Positions 8,901 to 62,466 of a DNA stretch of 64,000 nucleotides are shown piece after piece. The translations under genes were made by a program, and so were the position numbers. Position 1 is the stretch's first letter. Each line of letters opens with the position of its first letter. The DNA is from Beroe forskalii (Eukaryota > Ctenophora > Nuda > Beroida > Beroidae). Location of the stretch: positions 62,001 through 126,000 of the forward strand of contig WFMF01000319.1 in the NCBI GenBank assembly GCA_011033025.1. Direction: 5' to 3'. The notes under the pieces were generated by a model. It saw only the letters and a list, made by a program, of their open reading frames with translations. It was not told the origin of the DNA and searched no databases.

Positions 8901-11900
8901 GTATGCCACTCTTGGTACATTACAATCCGAGTATTATCATGAAGCGATGTAAAATAGAATGTGGGCAGATTACTTTTGTCAAACGCTCGATGCTTTGATG
9001 AGCATTTTAAAGTTCGTGTTTTTACGTTTTTATTGTTTCCTTCATAGAATTTAAGTATCATTTTATGCAGCATATTAGAGGTTTTTATAGGTTTCTGCGT
9101 CATCCCGAAAGCGCAAAAGTTTTACTTTTCCAATCGTGCCGATACTTATGTTGCATTTTATTGAGCGTGATAATTTACCATTTCCTGCAATAATATTCAT
9201 TTTAGTCGTTGAGTAGGCTAGAAAACGTTTCATACTTGTTATTGGAACTCTGCCAGGCATTAATAATTAATTACTATCGCTCCATTAATTAATTTTGTTT
9301 GTAACTTGCTAAATTTCTAGAGTTTCTATTGCGAATCACGCATGAGAATTATCCAGCTCGCAGTAGCATTGAGTTACAGTCTGCTCTCACCTTGCTAATG
9401 TCTTCTCTGGAATTCTATTTGCTGTATCGGTGGGATGGCCGAGTGGTCTAAGGCGCTACGTTCAGGTCGTAGTCAACAATGTTGGCGCGGGTTCGAATCC
9501 CGCTCCCACCTCGAATAACTTTTGAAATTTTATTGCACTACAATTAGCATTCAGTTAATATGAACTGATAAAAAAGCAGTTTGAATTATTGGAAAAGAAC
9601 AAAATGGGGAATTCTTGAGCATTTTGAATAATGAACTTTTGCCCTTGAATTGGAAAATACGATGCCGTCCTCTTTCATACTTTGACAAAAGACGATGAAA
9701 CAATTAATCATAATTGAATAATCAGCTCTGGCATGCACAGTGAAATGGAGCATTATGCATGGTGGGATGGCCGAGTGGTCTAAGGCGCTACGTTCAGGTC
9801 GTAGTCAACAATGTTGGCGCGGGTTCGAATCCCGCTCCCACCTCGAATAACTTTTGAAGTTTTAATGGACTACAATTAACAGTTAACTGAAGATGAGCTG
9901 ATGAAAAAATAGATAAAACGGAGAAATTTTGGCTTTCCGAATTATAAAATTTTGTCCTTCAGTTGGAAAATACGATGCCATCCTCTTTCTAACTTAGACG
10001 AAAGGTGATGGAACCATCCACCTTGTAATTAATTGAGTAATCAGCTCTGGGATGCACAGTGAAATGGAGCATTATGCATGGTGGGATGGCCGAGTGGTCT
10101 AAGGCGCTACGTTCAGGTCGTAGTCAACAATGTTGGCGCGGGTTCGAATCCCGCTCCCACCTCGGATCTTTTTCGGTGATAAAATCAACCGTCCCCTTCT
10201 CCAAGGCGGAATCATTACAAAAAGGGATGATTTATTTTACTGGTGTTGCTGTTAAGTTACCATGGCTTCAACTTCGAATACCCCTTAATAATGTACTAAT
10301 GTATATTGTATACTTGTATAGTTGCCATGGTATCGACCTGTCCAGCCTGCTTTACCCCTATTGACGATGCTAAGTGGGTGGTATACTCCAACGCCAAATA
10401 CCACAACGCCTGCTTCACCTGCCACACCTGTGAGAGACAGATAGGTTCCGATGAGGTCTTCAGACACAATGGAGGTAGTGATGAGAAATTGGCCATTGGG
10501 CCTTATATACCTGGGCCCTAATGGGAAAATGGGACCTGACTGTACCTCCTTTCCAGAACAGACTTTAGTCAAATACAGACTCGAGTCAAAATTTTTCAGG
10601 CAAATTTATAATTAACTTTAGACTCTTGTTCCATTCCGGTTCATTGAACCCCAGAAAGGCTATAAATGTGCACAATTCTAAAATCACAATACTAAAATCA
10701 CAAAACTATAACGGTGTCAAGTTTTCTCGATAATTTTAGTGTCAAATGTCCTGATCGCATGTTATTTCAGGTTTGAGAACGTGTGTCGACTGTGCTAAGA
10801 AAGAAGATCCCAGCATCGGTGAAGAGAAGTGAGTATCAGCTGATCGATTGTTCGATTTGGCGTCGGGAAGAAGGTTTATTTCTCGGTTCGAGGGTTGACC
10901 GAGGCCTATGCCAAAAAGCGTACCTTCGGTCGATGAATGATCACTGACCATTGACCAACGAAACCTCTTTCAGTGTCATGAATCTCAATTTTTTTTCCAT
11001 GAATTCTTCTTTTTATAGACTAACATTGCCATCTGGAATGGCGGATTAAGCCCATGTTATTTCATTTTACAGGGTTTGCTACGGCTGTGAAACGCCCATT
11101 GATAAGGTTTGGGTGATTGGACTCGATCAAAAGTGGCATTCTGAGTGCTTCAAGTGCTGCGAATGCAGCAGAATCATCGACCCAACGGAGAAATTTTACC
11201 GGGTAAGTTTTGAGTTTACTTAATCTGGGTTTCCGGGAAAAAATCCATTCGAATTTTATTTTTGTACACAAATAATAATCTATCATCAGCTCTATTTGAT
11301 CATTTTGACTCTTTTTATGGCTCAAAGATGAGTCTCCGGGGAATGCGCCTCCAGACCCCCGATGGGATTTCTTTCCGCTCACGGCGCTCGCCCAGCCCCC
11401 CCCCCCCTCTGAGATGTGAATTACGGCCTTGTTCAGGTGTTTCAGGTTTACCGAGTCATGTTTCCGGGGATAAAAATAGCTGCATATATTCCCGCCCTGG
11501 CCAGGGCGGTAACCCCCCGCGGTAAAAAGAAAACTGGCCAGGGGTATAAGTTAGAGATTTGAGTGTCACAGGGTGATAGTATAATAATAAGATTAATATA
11601 TAAGATTAATATCATGATAATTGGGAGCAAATTTGGAAAGCCGAGATCTCAAGAACGGGAAATGGTAGAGCCATGATCGAGGTCAGGTTTTGTTGATCTA
11701 AGATGGGAAAATGTTATAGGCTATAAGAGAAGTTCTGGTGACGTCATTTTCACGTCACTATGACGTCATCAACTTAGCGAAATTTTGTTTCGTTTTTAGC
11801 GAAAATAGGCTAATTTCGAGCGCATTTTTCACCAAGAAGGAAAGGAGATAGCGGTCTGATTTTTCGGAACAATTTTTAGCAAATTTAAAGAGCTTTCAGA

Positions 11901-17519: not shown

Positions 17520-17825
17520 GAGAAATCACAGTACAAGTCAACAATAACAGCCCAGGTTATCTTATGCTTATCAATATCATTGTATATGCACATGGCCCAA
17601 GTATTTCTTTTGTGAATAATCGTGCTTTTTTATAATGTTAAATTGTTTTTTTTGACCGAAAACGAGTATGAAAATGAAATTGAATTATTAAATACTATTT
17701 TACAATATTGCTAGATATAATTATAATTGTTTCATCGAAAAAGTTTTTTGAGTTTTCCATTCTTCGGAGATTCTATGTTTTAACGAATATTCTCTCACTC
17801 TGATCAGTAAAACAATAGTTAAAAC

Positions 17826-18487
17826 TCATGGGAGGTGAAATAGAGGTGTATCTGCTCATAGATTAGGCGCCTGAAACCACTGAACCAATAATATTCGCCA
17901 GTTTTCCTTTGTTTTCCTGTAAAATCCAAAAAACCCTATTTTTACCTCTCAAAACAGTGATCCAGGCGTGTCTTCATTTCTGAGGCAACCAAGATCCGAA
18001 ATCAAAAAGCTTTGGCCGATTGAGCTGAAAATTTGCACGCCATCCATGGACGACCTAAGGAAGAAATACCATACTTCAGAATCCCGAAATCAGCCATTTT
18101 CTGTCTGTTATGGGGTGTTAAAATCGCGTTTTTCGGCTTAAAAACTGCCTTTTTTTCGCCCCTTATTGGGCGTAGATGTCTCATGGTGGTCAAATCAGAA
18201 GTGTATCTGGTCATAAATTATGCGCTTAAAACCACTTGAATCAATGATATTCGCCAGTTTTCCTTTGTTTTCCTGAAAATCCAAAACCCTGCTTTTTGGT
18301 ACCTCTCAAACAGTGATCCAGGACGTTCTTCATTTCTGAGGCACCCAAGATCCGAAATCGAAAAGCTTTGACCGATTGAGTTGAAATTTGCACGCCATCC
18401 TATGACGACCTAAGGAAGATGGCCATGCCATACTTCAGAATCCTGAAATCAGCCATTTTCTGTCTGTTATGGGGGTTAAATGTTTTT
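17826..18487. repeat. Two tandem copies of ~355-bp unit, cut by gap
   Basis: GTGTATCTG at 17846 and 18201 each start blocks with ATATTCGCCAGTTTTCC, GATCCAGG, ATCCGAAATC-AAAAGCTTT and TTTGCACGCCATCC in the same order. The second copy is interrupted by the N run. Copies are highly similar. No coding potential. Confidence 0.85.
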
Positions 18488-18587
18488 NNNNNNNNNNNNN
18501 NNNNNNNNNNNNNNNNNNNNNNNNNNNNNNNNNNNNNNNNNNNNNNNNNNNNNNNNNNNNNNNNNNNNNNNNNNNNNNNNNNNNNNN
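18488..18587. other. Scaffold gap of 100 N
   Basis: Exactly 100 N, a conventional placeholder of unknown true size. It falls inside the second 355-bp repeat copy. Sequence after it (18588-19520) is rich in long A and T runs and reads as lower-quality consensus. Confidence 0.99.
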
Positions 18588-19865: not shown

Positions 19866-22139
19866 ACTGCTTAGCATGGTGCAATTGATTTATCGAGTAA
19901 AAAGTCATGTTTTTTGCTGTAAAATTTTCCGGCACTTTTGGCACTCGCCAATGATGTTAACTCAGGCACGCGCGGTGCCTTTTTTCCAGAAATAACCTGT
20001 GGGGTATAAAATGGCGGCAAAATTAGCGCGCGCGTATCTAATTTAGGCTGCGCGCGGAACAGGGATTTAGTCGGCTGCAATGCGCCGTACGTCGAACCCC
20101 CAATTTTCCAGGAAATTTCCATTTGTCACAAAATGTGTACGCACATGCTTCAAAGTAAATATTGACTGCAGCGGTCTCAGACAGCCTTTCTATCGAATGA
20201 AAAGTTCGCTGAATGCACTGCGTAATGTAAAAAGGATGGCTTTCTAAAGGAGAGTGCTTTTCCGTGTCCGTTTTACTTTTTTTTAATTTCCGGACTGCTT
20301 TTGGGCGCAAAACGGACATGTACGTTTTCATCGACTTTTCAATTAACAGACAAAAACAGCAGGAATCTAAAAAATTAATTTACGTTTGCGAATCACAGTA
20401 CACGACTTTGACATAATTCTGAACTTGAAACCGAATAATGCCATTTTGAAGCCACAATTCTGTGGTACAACAGAAATTTATGGACATTATAACATTGAAG
20501 TTCCTCAATGTAGAGCTCAGGAAATATGGCTGAAGTCTCCAAATCAACGAACTCTAGGCTCTATCAATGGACCATTTATCATCAATTCTGAACAATCAAT
20601 CAGTTGATGGTTGTATCTGATTTTCTGTTATTTTCTGAAAGTGCATACGACAACGTTCAGTCCGCTAGGGTGCGCCCTTATTTCAAAGTTTTTCAAAAAA
20701 CGGTGAAAAAACGGACATGTCCGCGTTGTAGAATAAAAAATTGAAAAAGCGGACAAAGAAGACGGTAAAGATTCCTGGGAGAGATAGTGGGAGGTGAGAG
20801 ACTGCAAAAAGGGCACAGCGGCCTTATAGCCGGTGGCATCGAGGTCTGGGGGGAAGTGAGGAGCCCCTTAAAGACGTAGTATTTGACATGAAATCCCCCG
20901 ACACTGAATCCCCCGACATTACACCCCGGTCCCTTACTACAGTACTGCAAATCTATAGAGGAAAGCGGGGATCAAACGTCGCAGTTCTATGATTGCTGTG
21001 ACATATGACCCCCCCCCCGACACTACATTGCCTCATGAATAAATACAAATTAAACACATTGATCAGTGGCTTATTCAAGGTCTGTAAGTGCGACATTTAC
21101 CCCCCCCGACATCACATTGTGAGGACCTTGAACTCCCCAATCCTCACACTTGGAATGTAACAGATGTACCTTGTTTACGGCCAGACGTCAGTGGAGAGTG
21201 ATGGAGATTCAATATTCATATATAATATTCACCTTGGAAACTTGTGCGACCTACAACAGGCTCTGACATAAAATTTAGAATATAACCTAACATACAATCA
21301 ATTGCTTTACAAACATTTCCCTCGTCTCTAATACCTTGTTGTAACTTTAAGTTGCAGTGCAGTCATAGCTGGAGATGACATCAACTGTTCCACACTTGTA
21401 CAGCACTCTCGTGTGTCACAGTATGTCAATTGCCATATCAAGCTGAGATATCTATTTGATGTCACTGCTTTCTGGGATGATCAGCCGCATGTTGTCCTTC
21501 CTCATCGACATCATCCTGGCTAGAGAATTTTACTGGTTAGTTAGTGCATACGATCTGAAATGAGGTATGACAGGATAAAATATGGTAAATCTCGTGCTTC
21601 TGGCTATAAAGCAAATCAATGAGAATTTCTACTTTCAATCGCCAACTTTATTGGAATGATAATTTCCTAACTCAGGTCTTTAAAGAGGTAGATTTAAACT
21701 TATCACTGGACGAAAATGAAATACCAAGGCTATAAAATGTCTAATAATAGAACTATTTGATAAACTGACAAAATTGAAAAGGTCACGAAATAACAAAATA
21801 TTTCAAACAATTTAAAAATACATGAAATTTAAGCAAACAAATTGGCAACTTCAGAACATCTAGAATGCACATGCATGGAGAAGCCTCCAGTCTGCCGAAA
21901 TAAAAAAAAACTTGTTTCAAAACTTCCAGATTGTCTTCTCGAGGAAACATCTTTTACCATTAATCAAGGAAGTCATCATTGAAAACTTGTGTGTACTTAA
22001 ACATTTGCAATCATAGCTTTAAGGAGTCATATCACATGGTAATTCAATTAGATAATTAACTGGGGTCACAACAATCATCAAAATAAGAATAAAAAACAAT
22101 ATTATTTTTATTGAGCTGATAAATCTAGAATAGCCATTA
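19866..22139. other. Intergenic stretch, no gene recognised
   Basis: No gene recognised. Contains two similar AAACGGACATGT motifs (20310 and 20709) and several CCCCCGACA-CA blocks (20887-21110). The + open frame 20386-20607 has no recognisable domain. Confidence 0.45.
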
Positions 22140-24166
22140 TAGTTAGGGAGAGTTAGATCCATCTGGGAAAAAATTATTAACCAAACGATTTCTTCACCAA
22201 AGTACTTCTTTGGGTCCTAGGAAACACCAAAAAAAAGTTCTAAGCCCAACTCCTTGGGGAAAAAAAGTTATGGCCATTTTAAGTTTGGTATCTGGAATCG
22301 CGCCTAGTGTGAACTTTGAAAGCCTGTAACTTTGGTTCCTTTTGGAGTTGAGAGCGGGCCAACCACCTTGAAATGACCGCAGTGGGCACATTGTGTCGGG
22401 CGGATCAAGGTTTCAAAGCCCTCAGACCTTTATTTTTTGAGTTATGGCCCAAAAACCGAATTTTGGTCACCCGCGATTCAATAATTGCTATGAAGACTGT
22501 AACTTTGGTCCCTTTTTGATCTGAAAGCAAACCAACCACTTCAGGTGAACCGCAATCAGCTCATTATAGGGGGTGGATGATGTTTTGAAGGTCAGCGGAC
22601 TTTTCGTTTTCCAGTTATGGCCCGAAAACGGAATTTTACTATGAATATGACTTTGTTTTCAAGTTATTATCAATCAAACTGAAATGATGCCAACCCCCTA
22701 TTTTCCAAACTGGGGTTGTGTTGAGAAACACACTTTGTATATACGTATTCCAAGGTTGATCATGGTGCCACTGCCATTAATATCTTAATGTAGCTAGCAG
22801 ATCTATCAGAGTAGCAGAGTCGAGCCTTCTCCACCTCCCCAGACCCTCCTAAACACCTGTTGGAACTTCTTCGACGATGGCATGAGACTTTCAGACACAG
22901 GAAACACGCAGATTTCTTTCTTCATCAACTCCCTCCCGTGAATCCTGATAGAAAAATCTGCTTTCTTGATATCCTTATTCACCTGAACAAGTCAGCCCCA
23001 GTCTAAACGAAGCTGACACCTGACACATACCAACCTCTATGCCTGACGCCCACTACTATTCTTCTACTAAAAAGACACTGTCATCAGATCCCTGATAAGA
23101 TGAATCCAAAACCTCATCACCATCATGGCAGAAGTGTCACAGAAGTGCAATATCCCCATTCTCCACCTCATACCAATCTTTTGCCTCCTTCAACATGCTG
23201 ATCAGACCCAAACTATCCCTCAAGACATATCTTCCCTCCCTCCATACCTATAAAAAGATCCTGAACCAACACAACATCAAAACAATGAGATTTTCACCAA
23301 GGCAGAATTCAAGAAGTCAAACCCTTCCTTCACCCTAACACCCTGAAACCCAGCACCAGATCTACGACAACGGCAGTCACTACTGCCCTGCCAAGTACAA
23401 TGGAGTAGTGGAGAGACCTATCGCCCCCTTCTGGATAGAATTAAAGAGCACGAGGGATGATACAGACCCAGAAACTCTGTGGAGTGTGGACACGACAGAT
23501 AGAGTGAAATATGCTCTTGCCCTTCACTCCATGTATCGAATGGTCACACAAAAGAATTGTAGACTGGTTGGAGCAGCATTCCATATCCTCAACGCCCTCC
23601 CTTCCAGGTGCCACCCTGACCTGTCAGAACCAAATATCATGAACTAAATTGATGTGTAAGATGTCAGTAGTTGGGTAGAGAGTTACTGAGTCTGTACCTA
23701 CTGAGGTACCTATAGTATTTAAGGAGATCCTAGGGAGGATGGGGTTCCGGAGTGAACTACACCACTTGAGTGATTAGCATTGTCTGTTCTGTTCAAGGGA
23801 GGTATCTTAGCTGAGATGGCTGCTTTACTTGTTCTGTCAGGTCAAGACCTAAGATCCATAGGGGAGCAGTCGATGGATGTGGATGTTGCTCCAGGAAATC
23901 CGCAATGCTATGACCATTACTCCAGTCATTACATGGAATGGGGGGCAGGAACAAATTCCACTTTCTGCCTGTGTCATCACCAGCATTACTGAGTTTTGAT
24001 CATCTCTCGTGCTCTTTGATTCAACCCAGAAGGGAGCAGTATGCCTGTCCCATGTACTTGGTAATACAATCGAGGTAGCTGATCTCGTAGATCTGATGTT
24101 GGGTGTCAGATCAATGTAGTGTAGGTTCAGCATCTTTTTGCTTTTTTGATAAGCTTGGGGAGATAG
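22140..24166 (+). mobile_element. Long-TIR element, copy A (right part replaced)
   Basis: Starts TAGTTAGGGAGAGTTAGATC and matches copy B (46262-48294) almost base for base, differing by scattered substitutions and small indels. Two ~172-bp sub-repeats lie in the left arm (CTGTAACTTTGGT at 22325 and 22497). The right arm present in copy B is missing; at ~24166 the sequence passes into a different segment and then the tandem array at 24290. Open frames of 70-131 codons (for example 23408-23647) are shared with copy B, but no transposase is recognised. Looks like a non-autonomous DNA element. Confidence 0.8.
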
Positions 24167-24289
24167 TAAGGGTCTGACTGTAACCCCCTGTGAACTAAAT
24201 AGTATAGTAGGTTTGAGAACGTTTTTCGGTAGTTCATAGGCCATAGATGCACCAGAAAAAAACTAACCAACTTCTGAGTTGGGCAACCC

Positions 24290-25245
24290 CCTTTTTTGGA
24301 CCCCTTTTCTTTCAAAATGGCAATATCTCAGCTTCTGATTGAGATACGAAGCCAATAAATACACCAAACTATGCAGAATGAGCAGATTATGGGGGTTAGA
24401 GCATAGTTTCAATGTCGTAACCCCTTTAGTTTTCGAGTTATGGACGAAAAACCCCTTTTTAGCCCTACGCATATGACCAAAATTGCCCCTTTTCAATAAA
24501 TGAGAACAGAAGATCGTAGAGACCTCAACAAGTACACTAAGGTATGCAGAATGAGCACATTATGGGGGGTAGAGCATAGTTTTTAAGTCGTAACCCCTTT
24601 CGTTTTCGAGTTATGGACGAAAAACCCCCTTTTAGCCCTACTCGTATGACCAAAATTACCCCGTTTCAATAAATGAGAACAGAAGGTCGTAGAGAACTAA
24701 ACAAGTACTCTACGTTATGCAGAATGGGCAAATTATGGGGGGTAGAGCATAGTTTCAACGTCGTAACCCCTTTAGTTTTCGAGTTATGGATGAAAAAACC
24801 CCTTTAGCCCTACGCTATGACCAAAATTGCCCCCGTTCAATAAATGAGAACAGAAGATCGTAGAGACCTTAACAAGTACACTAGAGTATGCAGAATGAGC
24901 ACATTATGGGAGGTAGAGCATAGTTTTAAGTCGTTACCCCTCGTTTTCGAGTTATAGACGAAAACCCTTTTAGCCCTATGCATATGACCAAAATTGTCCC
25001 TCTTCAATTAATGAGAACATAGTCCTGATTGTAGAGACCTCAACAAGTACGCTGTGTTATGGAATGAGCTCATTATTGGGGGATAGAGCGTAGTCTTATT
25101 AAACTCTAAGGTCGGAAACCTTTCGTTTCGAGTTATGGAAGGAAAACTACATTTTTACCCTATATATGTATGAAAAATGAGAAATGAAGATCGCACAGAA
25201 CCACACGACTATACTATCTATGCAGAAAAATAAGCAAATTATCTC
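24290..25245. repeat. Decaying tandem array, ~172-bp unit
   Basis: Six copies. The landmark TGCAGAATGAGC (or its decayed form) lies at 24372, 24545, 24718, 24889, ~25058 and 25220. Each unit also has CATTATGGGGGGTAGAGCAT, CCCCTTTCGTTTTCGAGTTA and CATATGACCAAAATTGCC. Copies get worse left to right. The unit is clearly related to the sub-repeats in the arms of the adjacent long-TIR element (CTCATTATAGGGGGTGGATG, TTTTCGTTTTCCAGTTATGG). Confidence 0.9.
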
Positions 25246-34257: not shown

Positions 34258-34839
34258 AATCCCCCCCCCACAACACAGTCGCAAGTCCATGTGCCAGAGT
34301 GTTAGCTTTCATTACACTGTATCATTTTTGGTGTCTCATGCTTTATTTGGATCTGCCTAGCTCTCTGATGAAGGCATTTCCTTCATGGATCCCGTCAAAG
34401 ACTATGGTTGGAGTTGTTGGAGGGTTCTGTGGCTTGACTACAAAGATGAGATGGTCAATTATCAAAGTTGAGTCGGTGAAAACAGTAGTAACTGCAGTTG
34501 TGAAATTAACCGTTAATGTTACAAGGTGTGCAGATTTTGAAGACATGAGTTCCTAGCCAGTGAACAAAACAAAATTATCCAATGTCAGTGTCAGTATGAG
34601 AATCAGTTGTCAGATATAACATCATCTTGCAATCAAAACAGAATGCTGTAACTAAACTCAGATGGATTAGCATGTCTAAGACTAACCAACGAATTCAATC
34701 TATTTTCCACTCTGCTCCTTCATATTTCATATGAATATTTGATTTTTGCACATAACTTTTGACTCTTGATCTAATGGGGGTGGCAAGTTATGGGAGCCCC
34801 TGTATCCGTTTTGGATACACGGACTTCTCCTAAACCTGG

Positions 34840-35866
34840 TATACATCATAACAGAGTTAACCATACCCAGGCTCGCCCTACACTTGGGCTAACCTCTAAT
34901 CACGGGCTCCCCTATACACCGCTCCCCTTAATCTTGGGCTTACCCACTTCCCTTGGTCTCACCCCTAAACAAGGGATCGCCCATATCAGACTCGCCCTTA
35001 TCCTGGGCTATACCGCATATGGCTCCCCCCTACCTTGGGCTTCTGGAATGCCTTGGGCTAACCCCCAAACACGGGATCAACCATACCAGACCAACCCTTA
35101 TCCAGGGCTATACTGCATATGGCTCCACCCTACCTTGGGCTTCTGCAATGCCTTGGGCTAACCCCCAAACACGGGATGCACCATACCAGACCAACTCTTA
35201 TCCTGGGCTATACCGCATATGGCTCCACCCTACCTTGGGCTCCCCCTCGCTTTAAATATGGGCTCCCCTCCGTTATATTGGGCCAGCCCATTCACTCACC
35301 CCATGCCCTCTCCCCCTAGTTTGGGCTCCCCCATGATCAAAACCCGGACTACCCCCGTATCAAATCGGCTCCCTCATGATAACTCGGGCTCCTTCCAGTA
35401 TTAACTCGGGCTCCCTCCAGTATTAACTCCGGCTCCCCCAATATTAACTTGGGCTCCCCTTGATAACTCGGGCTCCCCCCCCCCATTATAACTCGGCCTC
35501 TCCCCCATGTTATCTCGGGCTCCCCCCGTATTAACTTTGGCTCCCCCCACTATTTGGCTCCCCCATACCAACTTTGGCTCCCCCGTACCAACTTGGGCTC
35601 CCCCGTACTAACTTGGGCTCCCCCGTACTAACTTGGGCTCCCCCGTACTATCTGGGCTCCCCCGTACTAACTTGGGCTCCCCCGTGCTATCAGGGCTCCC
35701 CCGTACTATCTGGGCTCCCCCGTACTAACTTGGGCTCCCCCATACTATCTGGGCTCCCCCGTACTAACTTGGGCTCCCCTGCACTATCTGGGCTCCCCCG
35801 CACTATCTGGGCTCCCCCGCACTATGTGGGCTCCCCCATACCAACTTGGGCTCCCCCGTACTAATA
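34840..35866 (+). repeat. Outer left arm: GGGCTCCCCC minisatellite
   Basis: Two parts. 34840-35330 holds three ~113-bp units with CTTGGGCTAACCCCCAAACA and CATATGGCTCCACCCTACC. 35330-35866 holds ~28 copies of an 18-20-bp unit GGGCTCCCCCGTACTAACTT. Open frames (Pro/Leu/Gly-rich) are artefacts of the repeat. Confidence 0.92.
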
Positions 35867-36030
35867 GCTTAATAGGGAAACGTTCAGAAATAACTGCTGT
35901 GAAATTCCAGAAATGATTTTCCAATAATGGCAAATTTAACGAAAATGGCTGCCAATCGTAAAACCTTCACTGTAGGGATATGAAAATCTGATATATATGG
36001 TCAAGGATGATCTATTTATCTCCATCTTAA

Positions 36031-39000
36031 TCAACCCCGATGCGCGAGGTTGCGCTACATGCTAGTACCTTGTGCGCAGTTTTGGGAATCGCACCAATTT
36101 CGCGACAACATCGCACGATTTGAGGGTCTAAACTTAAGAAAAATGAATTTTGAAGGTGACCATTCAATAGAGCTCAGCTGTACGAGTTTATAGGTGAAAA
36201 GATCATTAAGATACGCTATTCCTGCCAGGAGTTATGTTCAATAACAGTTCGCAACAGAAAACACGTTTTCTAATTGCGCCGTCTTCCATGGTTCATTGTG
36301 GAGCTCAGGAGCATGATATCCAAAATCTAAGATCAACTTGAAGTACAAAATTTTATCCTCTAGCGATTCCCGAAGGTTTCAAGTCTCTATCTTCAAAAAT
36401 GTGGATTTCTATAGAACGACACCACGAGTCGATGTAAAATTGGTGTAAATTTATCCCGAATGAGGTTGCGCTACAAAATTGTAGATGAATTTTGCCGAGC
36501 CGCGCTGTAGCGCAACCTCACTCATTTCGATTGATAAATCAACGTCTTGATCCGAGATCGTATCGACAAAAAATTTCGATTTTCCTTGTAAATTTGCATT
36601 AAACAAGACGACAGCAGCATCTTCACAAATCTGCTAATTATTGATTAACTAATTATTTGTCATTTCAGGCGACTCACATAAGCCTAAGGTGAATTAACAG
36701 AATCTGAAATGCTGGGGTACAAGAACCGGAGGAAAATTCTCAACATTTCTACCAACAGATGAGATTAAGAGGTAATTTCAGATGGCACAGATTTTCGTGA
36801 TTAATATTCCATTACAAAATATTTCCTTGTATTTCATTGAGACAACGAAGTACTGAAAATCGATCACATAATCACGGTTTTGGTCGCTAAAACAGTGTAG
36901 CATTTTGGCCTGTAAACATCTGACAAGCAATACCCTATATCTTAAACTCACATGATTCTTTGAAAGTGTCCACCATAAGATTTTAAGCAGCAAAGTGGGG
37001 AACGGACATTTAACCTCGAAATTTTCTACCTACAACACTTTACTGCATGATTTTTCAACTATAGACTAAGATTAAGGTCTTGGTTAGGTTTGTGGTTAGG
37101 GTATGGAATAGGGTCAAGGGTTTGGGAGTTGGGATGGTTGGGGTCAGAGAAGAGAGATAAAGTGCTGTGAGGTAAAATTTCTGAGGTTTCAGGTCGGTTT
37201 CCCAGCTAAGTCTCCATCATGAGGCAAAAACAAGCAAATGAAGGACTTTTGTCAGTTGATTATCAGCAAAACATTGTGGCAATGGGAAGTAGTCAAGCTC
37301 TCGCCTCACGAAATTAAATGCTAAAACTGTTATCCACAGTCCAGCAGCGAACAGAAATATTAAAGTATAAAAAGTACAGACTCTGAAAAAGAAAATATGT
37401 CAAATTTACATCACTTCTCGAATCATATAGCCGAGAGAACAGTGAACTGCAGTGAAAGCAGTGATAGCAGCAGGCCAAATTCTGTGAAAGCAATCATTTC
37501 GAGAGAAAGTTAGTTAAAATCATACACGCAAGAAGAAGTAAAAAAGATACAAAAAATCGAACACGAGAGAATTAAATACAAAATCATGAAATAAAGTTTG
37601 AAATTGCGTTGATCATTTGCATTGCCATGTTGTCATGGTAACACATTCTTCGGAAATAGCAAGCTAGAGTGAGAGCAATACGTCATTATCGTAGTAACAA
37701 TGGTGTATTACTTTTCTCACACACTGAAATGATGTCAAATAAATGCCGCCTAATTACCGCAACAGTCTGATACATTGCAACTGTCCCATGAGAAAAGTAA
37801 GATACTAGACACTTTTAAAGTCATTGACATACCATATTCAACCATAATTACGTCATTCTCATTTGCCTATTGTTGGAGTGCTGCAAAAACTGAGTTTCAC
37901 CAAAAATGTAAAATTTTCTCATTTTAACCGATTTCCTTTCATCGTTTTGTATCTCATTTCAATATGTTTTGTTGTAATTGATGCGTTTCAAAGTGACATG
38001 CTACCAACATTCGTTTGTTTCTATCAATCTGATTATTGTTTGTTTTCTAAGATTACTAGTGTTTTAAATTTCATTAAAAGCATCACACACATTTTTGACT
38101 CAAGCCTTCGATTTCAAAACTTTTGAGGTTTATTTAGCAATACATCCATGCTTTGAGTCCATGCTTTGATTCGTTGCCTTAACAAATTTTTCGCCTTCAA
38201 GCCCTCGGGCTCACAACTTCCACATAGGCTAAGCCAGGATCGTTCACATGTTACTTAATCACCTAAGGGGGTGGGGATTACGAATGACTACGTTACATGT
38301 TATTGTATAAACAAATGTAACTACTGTAAACTTGCTTAGGGAGGGGAAGGGGGGTTAAAAATTGGCCAAAAAATTGATTATAAAATATGCGAATCATCCC
38401 TAATACTCACCAAGCTCTTACCAATTCCAAAGAATATGTTGCCAAGGCAACATGGCAGAGATCAACGCAATTATGCAAATTCCAAACTTAATTTCGTGAT
38501 ATTGTATTCTATCTTTCGCATCTTTCGACTTTTATTTCATTCCTAATCCTATGTTTGTAATTTTTGTATGATTGCAACTTCTCGAAATGATTGCATTACA
38601 GAATTTGAGCTTCCGCTATTCACTCCACTTCACTGCTCTCTAGGCTATTTGATTCGAGGAAAATGTCCACTGCTGATGGAATTGCTGTTAATTTGATTCA
38701 AGTTTTTATTTCCAAAGTCTGTACTTTTATACTCTTATACTTCTGTTAAGCTGCTGAACTATCTAGATATCAGTTTTAACATTTAATTGCTTGAGGCCGA
38801 CTACTTCGCATTGCCACGATGTTTGCTGACAATCAACTTACAAGATTACTTTATTTTGCGTTTGTTTTGCCTCATTATAGAGACTTTGCTGTTTTATTAA
38901 AATCTTATGGTGGACACTTTCAAAGCATCATGTGTGTTTAAAAATAGAGGTATTGCTTGTCGGGTGTTAACAGGCCAAAATGCTACACTGTTTACTTGAC

Positions 39001-39860
39001 CAAACCGTGATTATGTGATCGATTTTCAGTACTTCTGTCTCAATGAAATACAAAGGAAATATTTTGTAATGGAATATTAATCACGAAAATCTGTGCCATC
39101 TGAAATTACCTCTAATCTCATCTGTTGGTAGAAAATGTTGAGAATTTTCCTCCGGTTCTTGTACCTTAGCATCTCAGATTCTGTTAATTCACCTTAGGCT
39201 TATGTGAGTCGCCTGAAATGACAAATAATTGAATTAATCAATAATTAATTTGAAGATGCTGCTGTCGTCTTGTTTGATGCAAATTTACAAGGAAAATCGA
39301 AATTTCTTGTCGATACGATCTCGGATCAAAGGCGTTGATTTATCAATCGAAAATGGCCGGAGTTGCGCTACAGCTGGCTTGCTCGGCAAAATTCATCTAC
39401 AATTTTGTGCGCAACCTCATTCGGGGATAAATTTACACCAATTTTACATCGACTCGTGGTGTCGTTCTATAGAAATCCACATTTTTGAAGATAGAGACTT
39501 GAAACCTTCAAAGGAATCGCTAGAGGATAAAATTTTGTACTTCAAGTTGATCTTAGATTTTTTGGATATCATGCTCCTGAGCTCCACAATGAACCATGGA
39601 AGGCAGCGCAATTAGAAAAAACGTGTTTTCTGTTGCGAACTGTTATTGAACATAACTCTGGCAGGAATAGCGATATCTTAATGATCTTTTTCACCTATAA
39701 ACTCGTACAGCTGGCTCTATTGAATGTGGTCACCTTCAAAAATTCATTTTCTTAAGTTTAGACCCTCAAATTGTGCGATGTTGTCGCGAAATTGGTGCGA
39801 TTCCCAAAACTGCGCACAGGGTACTAGCATGTAGCGCAACCTCGCGCATCGGGGTTGTTA
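36031..39860. mobile_element. Inner 3.8-kb palindrome (long inverted repeat element)
   Basis: Left end TCAACCCCGATGCGCGAGG and right end CCTCGCGCATCGGGGTTG are inverted copies. The arms extend ~1.6 kb each (to about 37700 and from about 38370) with inner landmarks GGCGACTCACATAAGCC at 36669 and its inverse at ~39196, and CATGTTGTCATGGTAACA at ~37626 and its partner near 38446. The central spacer is ~0.7 kb and mostly unique. The motif GAGGTTGCGCTACA occurs several times in each arm. The open frame 39250-39615 lies inside an arm and is not supported as a gene. Confidence 0.85.
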
Positions 39861-40069
39861 ATGTGATAACATGAATTCGACCTATTGTACACATGTACCT
39901 AGGTACACAGTACATTATAATATCTCACTTTACATTTTCATTGTCAGGGCGGTAATTCGCATTTACGAGTTTGGGGAGGGGCTGGGAAAGCGAAGCAAGC
40001 CCAATAATTTGAGGTCCAGGGGTGAAACCCCTGGCAGGCGTGGGGGAGGCCTGCAAATTTTTTAGTATG

Positions 40070-41430
40070 TGTGGGGGAGCCCAAGTTGGTATGGGGGGCC
40101 CAAGTTATCATGAGGGGAGCCCAAGTTGGTATGGGGGAGCCCCTGATAGTACCGGGGAGCCCAAGTTGGTATGGGGGGGCTCAGATGTGGTGGAGCCCAA
40201 GTTGGTATGGGGGAGCCCAAGTTGGTATGGGGGGCCCAGTTAGTGCGGGGGAGCCCAGATAGTGCGTTGGAGCCCAAGTTAGTATGGGGGCCCAGGTTTG
40301 GCCATGGGGCCGGGTTGAGTGAGGGGGGCCCAGATAATGCGAGGGCCCCAAAGTTGTGCAGGGCCCAAGTTGCTGAGGGAGCCCGGTTTGGTGCGGGGGC
40401 CCAGATGAATGGGGGCCCAAGTTGGTGCAGGGGGCCCAAAGTTGGTACGAGGGCCCAAAGTTGATGGGGGCCCAGATAGGGCGGGAAGCCCAAGTTAGTG
40501 CGGGGCCCCAGGAGTGGGGGCCCAGGGTTGAATGGGGCCCAAGTTGGTATGGGGGAGCCCTGATGATGCAGGGGGCCAGTTGGTTTGGGGGCCCCAGATA
40601 GTGAGGGAGACCAGGATTTATGGGGGGGCCCAAGTTGGTGCGGGGGCCCAAGTTGGTATGGGGGAGCCAAATGGTGTGGGGGGCCAAAGTTAATGCGGGG
40701 GGGCCCAAATAACATGGGGGGTAATGGGGGGGCCGGGTTAGTATAGGGGTGGCCCGAGTTAGTATTGGGGTAGCCCGAGTTATCATGAGGAGCCCGAGAT
40801 AATGGGGGGTAGTCCGGGTTTTGATCATGGGGGAGCCCAAACTAGGGGGGGAGAGGGCATGGGGTGAGTGAATGGGCTGGCCCAATATAACGGAGGGAGC
40901 CCATATTTAAAAGCGAGGGAGGCCCAAGGTAGGGTGGGCCATGCCATACGGTATAGCCCAGGATAGGGAGTTGGTCTGGTATGGTGGATCCCGTGTTTGG
41001 GGGTTGTAAAGGCATTCAAGCCCAAGGTAGAGGGTGGAGCCATATGCGGTATAGCCCAGGATAAAGGATTTGGTCTGGTATGGGTGGATCCCGTGTTTGG
41101 GGGTTGGCCCAAGGCATTCCAGAAGCCCAAGGTAGGTGGAGCCATATGCGGTATAGCCCAGGATAAGGGTTTTGGTCTGGTATGGTTGATCCCGTGTTTG
41201 AAATTTAGCCCAAGGCATTGCAGAAGCCCAAGGTGGGGTGGAGCCATATAAACCCAGGATAAGGGCAGAGTCTGGTATGGGCGATCCCTTGTTTAGGGGG
41301 TGAGACCAGGAAGTGGATAAGCCCAAGATTAGTGGTGTATAGGGGGAGCCCGTGTTTAGAGGTTAGCCCAAGTGTAGGGCGAGCCTGGGTATGGTTCTCT
41401 GTTATGATGTATACCAAGATTAAGGGGAGG
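40070..41430 (-). repeat. Outer right arm: inverted GGGCTCCCCC minisatellite
   Basis: Reverse complement of the left outer arm: AAGTTGGTATGGGGGAGCCC units at 40070-40830, then the ~113-bp units with TGGTATGGTTGATCCCGTG to 41300. It is ~330 bp longer than the left arm, mainly in the short-unit part. The 217- and 234-codon minus-strand open frames are repeat artefacts. Confidence 0.92.
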
Positions 41431-41565
41431 CATTTGGCTCCCCCCATTGTCCAAGTATACCAAACTTTGGAATTTTTGATGCAGAAAAAAGTATCCAATC
41501 AATTCGAATGGCAGTGTTTAAATTGTCGTACGATGTATGACCCGCTGACGCCAGCCGGGCCGCGA

Positions 41566-42133: not shown

Positions 42134-42513
42134 TGAACGCGTATTTTCTTTGTATTTTTGTAAAATACGCTTATTTTGTAAAATTGTTTAAAATACGCAT
42201 ATTTTGTGAAATACGCGTATTTTGTGAAATACGCGTATTTTGTGAAATACGCGTATTTTGTGAAATACGCGTATTTTGTGAAATACGCGTATTTTTGTGA
42301 AATTATACGCGTATTTCACAAAATACGCGTATTTTGTGAAATACGCGTATTTTGTAAAATGCGCGTATTTTGAAATACACGTATTTTGTGAAGTACTTGT
42401 ATTTTGAAATACGCGTAAATTGTGAAATATGCGTATTTTTTAAAATACGCGTATTTTACAAAATATATTTTGTAAAATACTATACGCGTATTTTGTAAAA
42501 TATGCGTATTTTT
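42134..42513. repeat. Palindromic minisatellite, AAATACGCGTATTTTGTG unit
   Basis: About 18 copies of an 18-bp unit whose core AAATACGCGTATTT is its own reverse complement. Orientation of the linker flips near 42303 (TTTCACAAAATACGCG), so the array is also a large inverted repeat. The open frames on both strands (EIRVF-type and TRILQN-type repeats) are artefacts. Confidence 0.95.

Positions 42514-46076: not shown

Positions 46077-62466
<16,390 letters not shown>

Follow-up and report, generated by a model that had tools for sequence, protein, structure and literature searches.

A 6.6-kb palindrome in Beroe forskalii read as one foldback-type DNA transposon inside another

The palindrome at positions 34774..41467 of the window, by which we mean the whole 64,000-nt stretch of DNA that was analysed, almost certainly consists of two non-autonomous DNA transposons of foldback type, one nested in the other and belonging to unrelated families. 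Each family was found without the other, and the inner one shows empty sites, 5-bp duplications and conserved ends. The structure in the window is real, and the structural kind of both families is already familiar. What was supposed to be a 6.6-kb nested palindrome becomes a clear case of one long-inverted-repeat transposon within another, in a genome with at least two, probably three, families of such transposons. Thanks to empty sites and duplications, the inner family can be delimited firmly and the outer one well. The parts are as follows:

34774..41467, no strand assigned: outer transposon, split by the inner one and about 2.9 kb long when that is left out; boundary taken from ten other copies
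34774..34775, forward strand: AT at the left boundary, a possible 2-bp target duplication, with A before it
34776..34837, forward strand: type-A end of the outer element, GGGGGTGGCAAGTTATGGGAGCC...
34838..35865, forward strand: left outer arm, with a unique start GGTATACATC..., 100-bp repeats and then a GGGCTCCCCCGTACTAACTT minisatellite with a unit of about 20 bp
35866..36031, forward strand: left half of the outer spacer, with TTAAT at its end
36027..36031, forward strand: left copy of the 5-bp target duplication TTAAT
36032..39857, forward strand: inner transposon, 3826 bp, with ends CAACCCCGATGCGCGAGG, also given as CAACCCCGATGCGCGAGGTTGCGC
36032..37005, forward strand: left inverted repeat of the inner element, high identity
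37202..38892, no strand assigned: core of the inner element, arms about 70-75% identical, unpaired centre at about 37660-38430; similar in other copies
38893..39857, reverse strand: right inverted repeat of the inner element, high identity
39858..39862, forward strand: right copy of the 5-bp target duplication TTAAT
39863..40072, forward strand: right half of the outer spacer
40073..41414, reverse strand: right outer arm, with inverted minisatellite and 100-bp repeats and an excess of private indels
41415..41467, reverse strand: type-B end of the outer element, unlike the left end

An earlier, sequence-only reading of the window had placed inverted arms here, and these were recovered by comparison of the window with itself and by full alignment of the arms. 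Self-comparison gave 131 nt at 95% identity (36032-36162/39727-39857), 86 nt at 100% (36372-36457/39424-39509) and 54 nt at 98% (34859-34912/41343-41396). The difference of about 330 bp noted between the outer arms is about right, these being 1025 and 1340 bp long as cut. The inner repeat had further been described as lying exactly between two minisatellite halves; the symmetry holds, but the parts do not abut, and a non-inverted outer spacer of about 380 bp (about 166 and about 210 bp on the two sides) intervenes. The repeated unit exceeds the palindrome, extending over approximately 34774-41467 with two ends that differ in sequence, and neither GGTATACATCATAACAG nor TCAACCCCGATGCGCG, offered as element starts for a search, is an exact terminus. 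The genome search itself, made in the 216-Mb assembly of 1134 contigs, found many separate copies of both families. Their numbers exclude chance: there are 48 inner ends with up to two mismatches and 169 outer ends with up to one, compared with 0 and 1, respectively, for the reversed patterns used as control.

The inner ends were counted with a 24-base pattern (26 forward and 22 reverse). With the inner-end query at least 40 matches were obtained (the best 40 of 290 candidates scored), 30 of which form 15 inverted pairs about 3-6 kb apart; one copy of about 7 kb was met on contig C225 in the end-pattern search. All 15 inner elements with both ends readable (that of the window and those at 14 of 20 fetched loci, the remaining six being without a readable end) are flanked by a perfect 5-bp duplication, and its sequence varies between copies. 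Alignment of the arms and the other copies both show that the inverted repeat makes up most of the element. Identity is high over about 1 kb (to about 37005 and from about 38893), goes down to 86% at the inner side and then to about 70-75%. Pieces of the middle 1.9 kb in other copies match the window at about 83-94%, against mostly 70-75% between the two core arms themselves; the palindromic design of the element therefore probably predates its dispersal. Sibling arms differ by a mean of 5.3 substitutions, versus 7.6 between copies, with indels alike (2.5), and the sibling is the nearest or tied arm for 9 of 30 arms. As judged from these alignments, homogenisation of arms within the family may have had a mild effect at most.

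The insertion of the inner element into the outer one can be read from the spacer of other outer copies. In two of the ten fetched, L029 and L033, the sequence aligns without gaps through both spacer halves of the window, joined at a single TTAAT, and is an exact empty site. Two more, L030 and L032, are likewise without the inner element, though short insertions (8 and 12 bp) adjoin the site; with these included, copies with a spacer uninterrupted by the inner element number 4/10. Different insertions, of about 2.0 and 2.4 kb, sit in the spacers of L035 and L038, and the spacers of L031, L034, L036 and L037 are in part or wholly lost or replaced. The inner query has a short match close to the spacer of L035, a copy in which the inner ends are missing. 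The outer spacer of the window is broken by the inner element, from which we infer that the outer element came first and the inner one second, and the apparent centring of the palindrome follows from insertion into a short spacer.

The concentric symmetry in the window would suit a single, very large compound foldback element mobile as a unit, close to what the sequence-only reading had put forward. We regard this as highly improbable, since the families occur apart, with the outer arm end at 0/20 inner loci and the inner end in 0/10 outer copies, and since the inner boundary carries both a 5-bp duplication and an empty site. The 20 inner loci also lacked the outer spacer and any array match of 200 bp or longer; in this comparison array rows below 200 bp were dropped, as they were for the outer loci together with arm-end rows not beginning at the end. 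The foldback kind proposed earlier stands, as two independent elements, one inside the other, and not as one. In the two-element reading, a transposon of about 2.9 kb with minisatellite-bearing long inverted arms would have inserted first, probably at an AATT-like site. A 3.8-kb element whose halves are largely inverted copies would then have landed at CATC-TTAAT-GTGA in the spacer, with duplication of TTAAT. Both were presumably moved by cut-and-paste, by transposases encoded elsewhere and acting in trans on the conserved ends.

Differences between the arms had earlier been taken to exclude a hairpin artefact. This argument fails: it is mainly the right half of the window that holds the surplus of differences, and they have the look of a low-quality consensus. 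Over its first approximately 175 bp the right outer arm departs from the majority sequence by six substitutions, four deletions and three insertions (seven indel events); in each of the other 21 outer arms there are 0-4 substitutions, and all but one, from L033 and with two deletions, are free of indels. The inner copy of the window, compared with ten loci without large inserts (the remaining loci being left out), has 101 private substitutions, within the range of 19-135 in the others, and 54 private indel events, of which the first 600 bp hold only one; nine of the ten other copies have 9-26, and L027 has 52. The excess of private indels sets in within the left half and peaks in the right one, which points to a probably poor consensus at roughly 36.7-41.5 kb.

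Such figures would be in line with a hairpin read or an assembly fold, the right half being a noisy copy of the left. The right half, however, bears the other half of the spacer, a sequence which the left lacks but which in other copies directly continues the left spacer; its end is of the other type, and it carries its own copy of the duplicated TTAAT. Fold artefact is excluded by the spacer half and the end type, and the same arrangement of the inner core recurs in other copies; we therefore give an artefact next to no credence, and the conclusion that the structure is real stands on these other grounds.

The outer family is likewise dispersed with defined ends. Its arms are long and inverted, with internal tandem repeats: arrays of a GGGCTCCCCC-type minisatellite with a unit of about 20 bp occur in both arms, alongside 100-bp repeats, and array lengths vary among the ten other copies. 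Matches to the arm-end query were found at many places (the best 40 of 369 candidates scored), and the left-spacer query gave at least 41 (the best 40 of 44 candidates scored). Across the genome, 94 sites match the 16-base end perfectly, and 60 of them were assigned by hand, from the match listing, to 30 inverted pairs 2-24 kb apart. In the ten fetched copies the repeat runs past the palindrome and terminates in ATGGGGGTGGCAAGTT, followed by sequence of type A or type B. An earlier candidate for the outer ends, GGTATAC, was ruled out, as homology runs about 65 bp further out with the two end types. One end of each type is present in the window and in nine of the ten copies, L035 having two of type A. 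L033 has lost both of its ends, and L037 and the window copy have each lost the type-B one; in the window the final approximately 11 nt usually seen at the right end could not be recognised, and the poor quality of the right half keeps the right boundary from being read exactly. Eight outer copies have both ends intact; seven of these gave no target duplication of 6 bp or longer, and the remaining one, L030, sits within a tandem array.

The boundaries of the outer family read A-AT/GGGGG...CCCCC/AT-T (slashes mark the boundaries), and A precedes AT at 17 of 18 intact ends (window and L029-L038). L030 is inserted within a TTAGGGTGGTAA array, which becomes perfect again on removal of the element provided that one AT is kept, the target being AATT. 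This excludes AT as part of both outer ends and fits two modes that are indistinguishable here, duplication of AT, or insertion without duplication by an element with TGGGGG...CCCCCA ends. The terminal inverted repeat (TIR) starts with GGGGGTGGCAAGTT if AT counts as target and otherwise with TGGGGG.

These features bear on an affiliation with ISL2EU of the PHIS superfamily, for which PMC4482050 gives an AT duplication, the target A/AT/T and TIRs of 6-259 bp usually starting with GG. The outer boundaries are compatible with all of this except length, as the outer TIR exceeds 1 kb. The same paper names DDE, HTH and THAP domains in the autonomous ISL2EU transposases, and a YqaJ exonuclease partner to a THAP+DDE transposase in most, though not all, of these elements (PMC4482050). 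The genome has no YqaJ match (PF09588), a partner that a non-autonomous element need not carry, and none of its 35 DDE_Tnp_4 or 49 THAP matches lies between the 30 paired outer ends. The duplication-free alternative at L030 is Spy-like, Spy being another member of the PHIS superfamily. According to PMC4482050, Spy prefers AAATTT, whereas the outer family keeps the first A only, and the next base beyond it is A in just 2 of 18 ends, leaving the motif unmatched.

An ISL2EU origin of the outer family is plausible from its boundaries and not established. The specific proposal, that it is a non-autonomous ISL2EU which has acquired foldback minisatellite arms, has in our view somewhat less than an even chance. 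Only tentatively would we read the family as an ISL2EU-type or other PHIS-type transposon with an evolved foldback form, made up of GC-rich minisatellite arms of more than 1 kb and two end types. In the literature collection searched, no paper paired ISL2EU with foldback elements; among the matches listed in a looser search, one paper, on Trichoplax, mentions both ISL2EU and minisatellite. Should the outer family be of ISL2EU type, foldback arms with minisatellites would have evolved in a group other than the Mutator and P lineages.

Target duplications of about 5 bp are made by hAT transposons (5-bp group), Ginger2 and Transib, and the 5-bp duplications in 15/15 inner elements would suit a derivative of any of these. 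We nevertheless think such a derivation less likely than not for the inner family: none of the 23 genome matches to the hAT dimerisation domain (PF05699) shares a contig with any of the 48 inner ends, and these ends do not fit the CACWATG start of Transib. A piggyBac or Kolobok TTAA target, suggested by the TTAAT of the window alone, was rejected on the varied 5-bp duplications of the 15 copies.

For neither family did we find an autonomous copy or a transposase, and the statement of the sequence-only reading that the palindrome has no transposase holds as far as tested, in the copies and in the window frames. Open frames of at least 150 aa, taken from stop to stop and with more than 14 residue types, a criterion by which shorter exons would be missed, were absent from the inner and outer copies of L009-L040 except for tandem-repeat frames. 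The middle parts of two outer copies of 10.9 and 8.5 kb (L039 and L040) gave no qualifying frame either. A Pfam scan of six frames, three from fetched loci and three from the window, returned no transposase and one reverse transcriptase match. Elsewhere in the genome, a THAP match at C370:671762-672040, in a 781-aa frame, lies 3.2 kb beyond the inner end at C370:668561-668584, on the outer side of that end; several THAP frames of comparable length (about 740-783 aa) are also present in the genome and could be transposases. A further long inverted pair (828-bp alignment, 97%) was seen inside an outer-family copy at L040:2066-5082, and elements of this sort may often be nested in this genome.

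In structure, both elements belong to the class of foldback transposons. Drosophila FB and sea urchin TU are of this type, with long inverted arms, internal tandem repeats and a middle without coding capacity. The elements described here resemble these and Tetris in their long inverted arms with tandem repeats, in a middle without coding capacity and in that no autonomous copy was found. For Tetris of D. virilis, PMC4079207 reports long arms with tandem repeats, a non-coding middle domain, no autonomous copy found and duplications of 8-10 bp, unlike the 5 bp of the inner family and the 2 bp (AT) or none of the outer. Galileo, a foldback-like element of the P superfamily, has, according to PMC4168063, long TIRs of variable length, tandem repeats within them and insertions of other elements, all three as in the elements of the window. 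Its duplications of 7-8 bp (PMC4168063) differ in length from those of both families here.

The window contains several other features. A third element is represented twice, 22140-24163 being repeated at 46262-48295 with 96.5% identity (regions 22135-25162 and 46262-49293). Its copy at 46-49 kb has inverted ends of about 510 bp (TAGTTAGGGAGA...) and tandem repeats of about 173 bp in the arm, and is again a long-TIR element with tandem repeats; a clear duplication was looked for and not found. The region 56034-59870 opens with a poly-A tract and continues for about 3.8 kb as stretched homopolymers (A, G and T runs), with few C at 57001 to 59500; it looks like failed base calls incorporated in the assembly. 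A 171-bp satellite occupies 50710-53158 (14.4 copies, 96%), and an array of an 18-bp unit (TAAAATACGCGTATTTTG), every unit of which is nearly palindromic, lies at 42187-42512. A 100-N gap (18488-18587) comes just behind 17825-18480, where about 356 bp are duplicated in tandem. Finally, three tRNA-Leu(CAG) genes stand in tandem at 9429-10163, spaced by about 330 bp and partly within a repeated unit.
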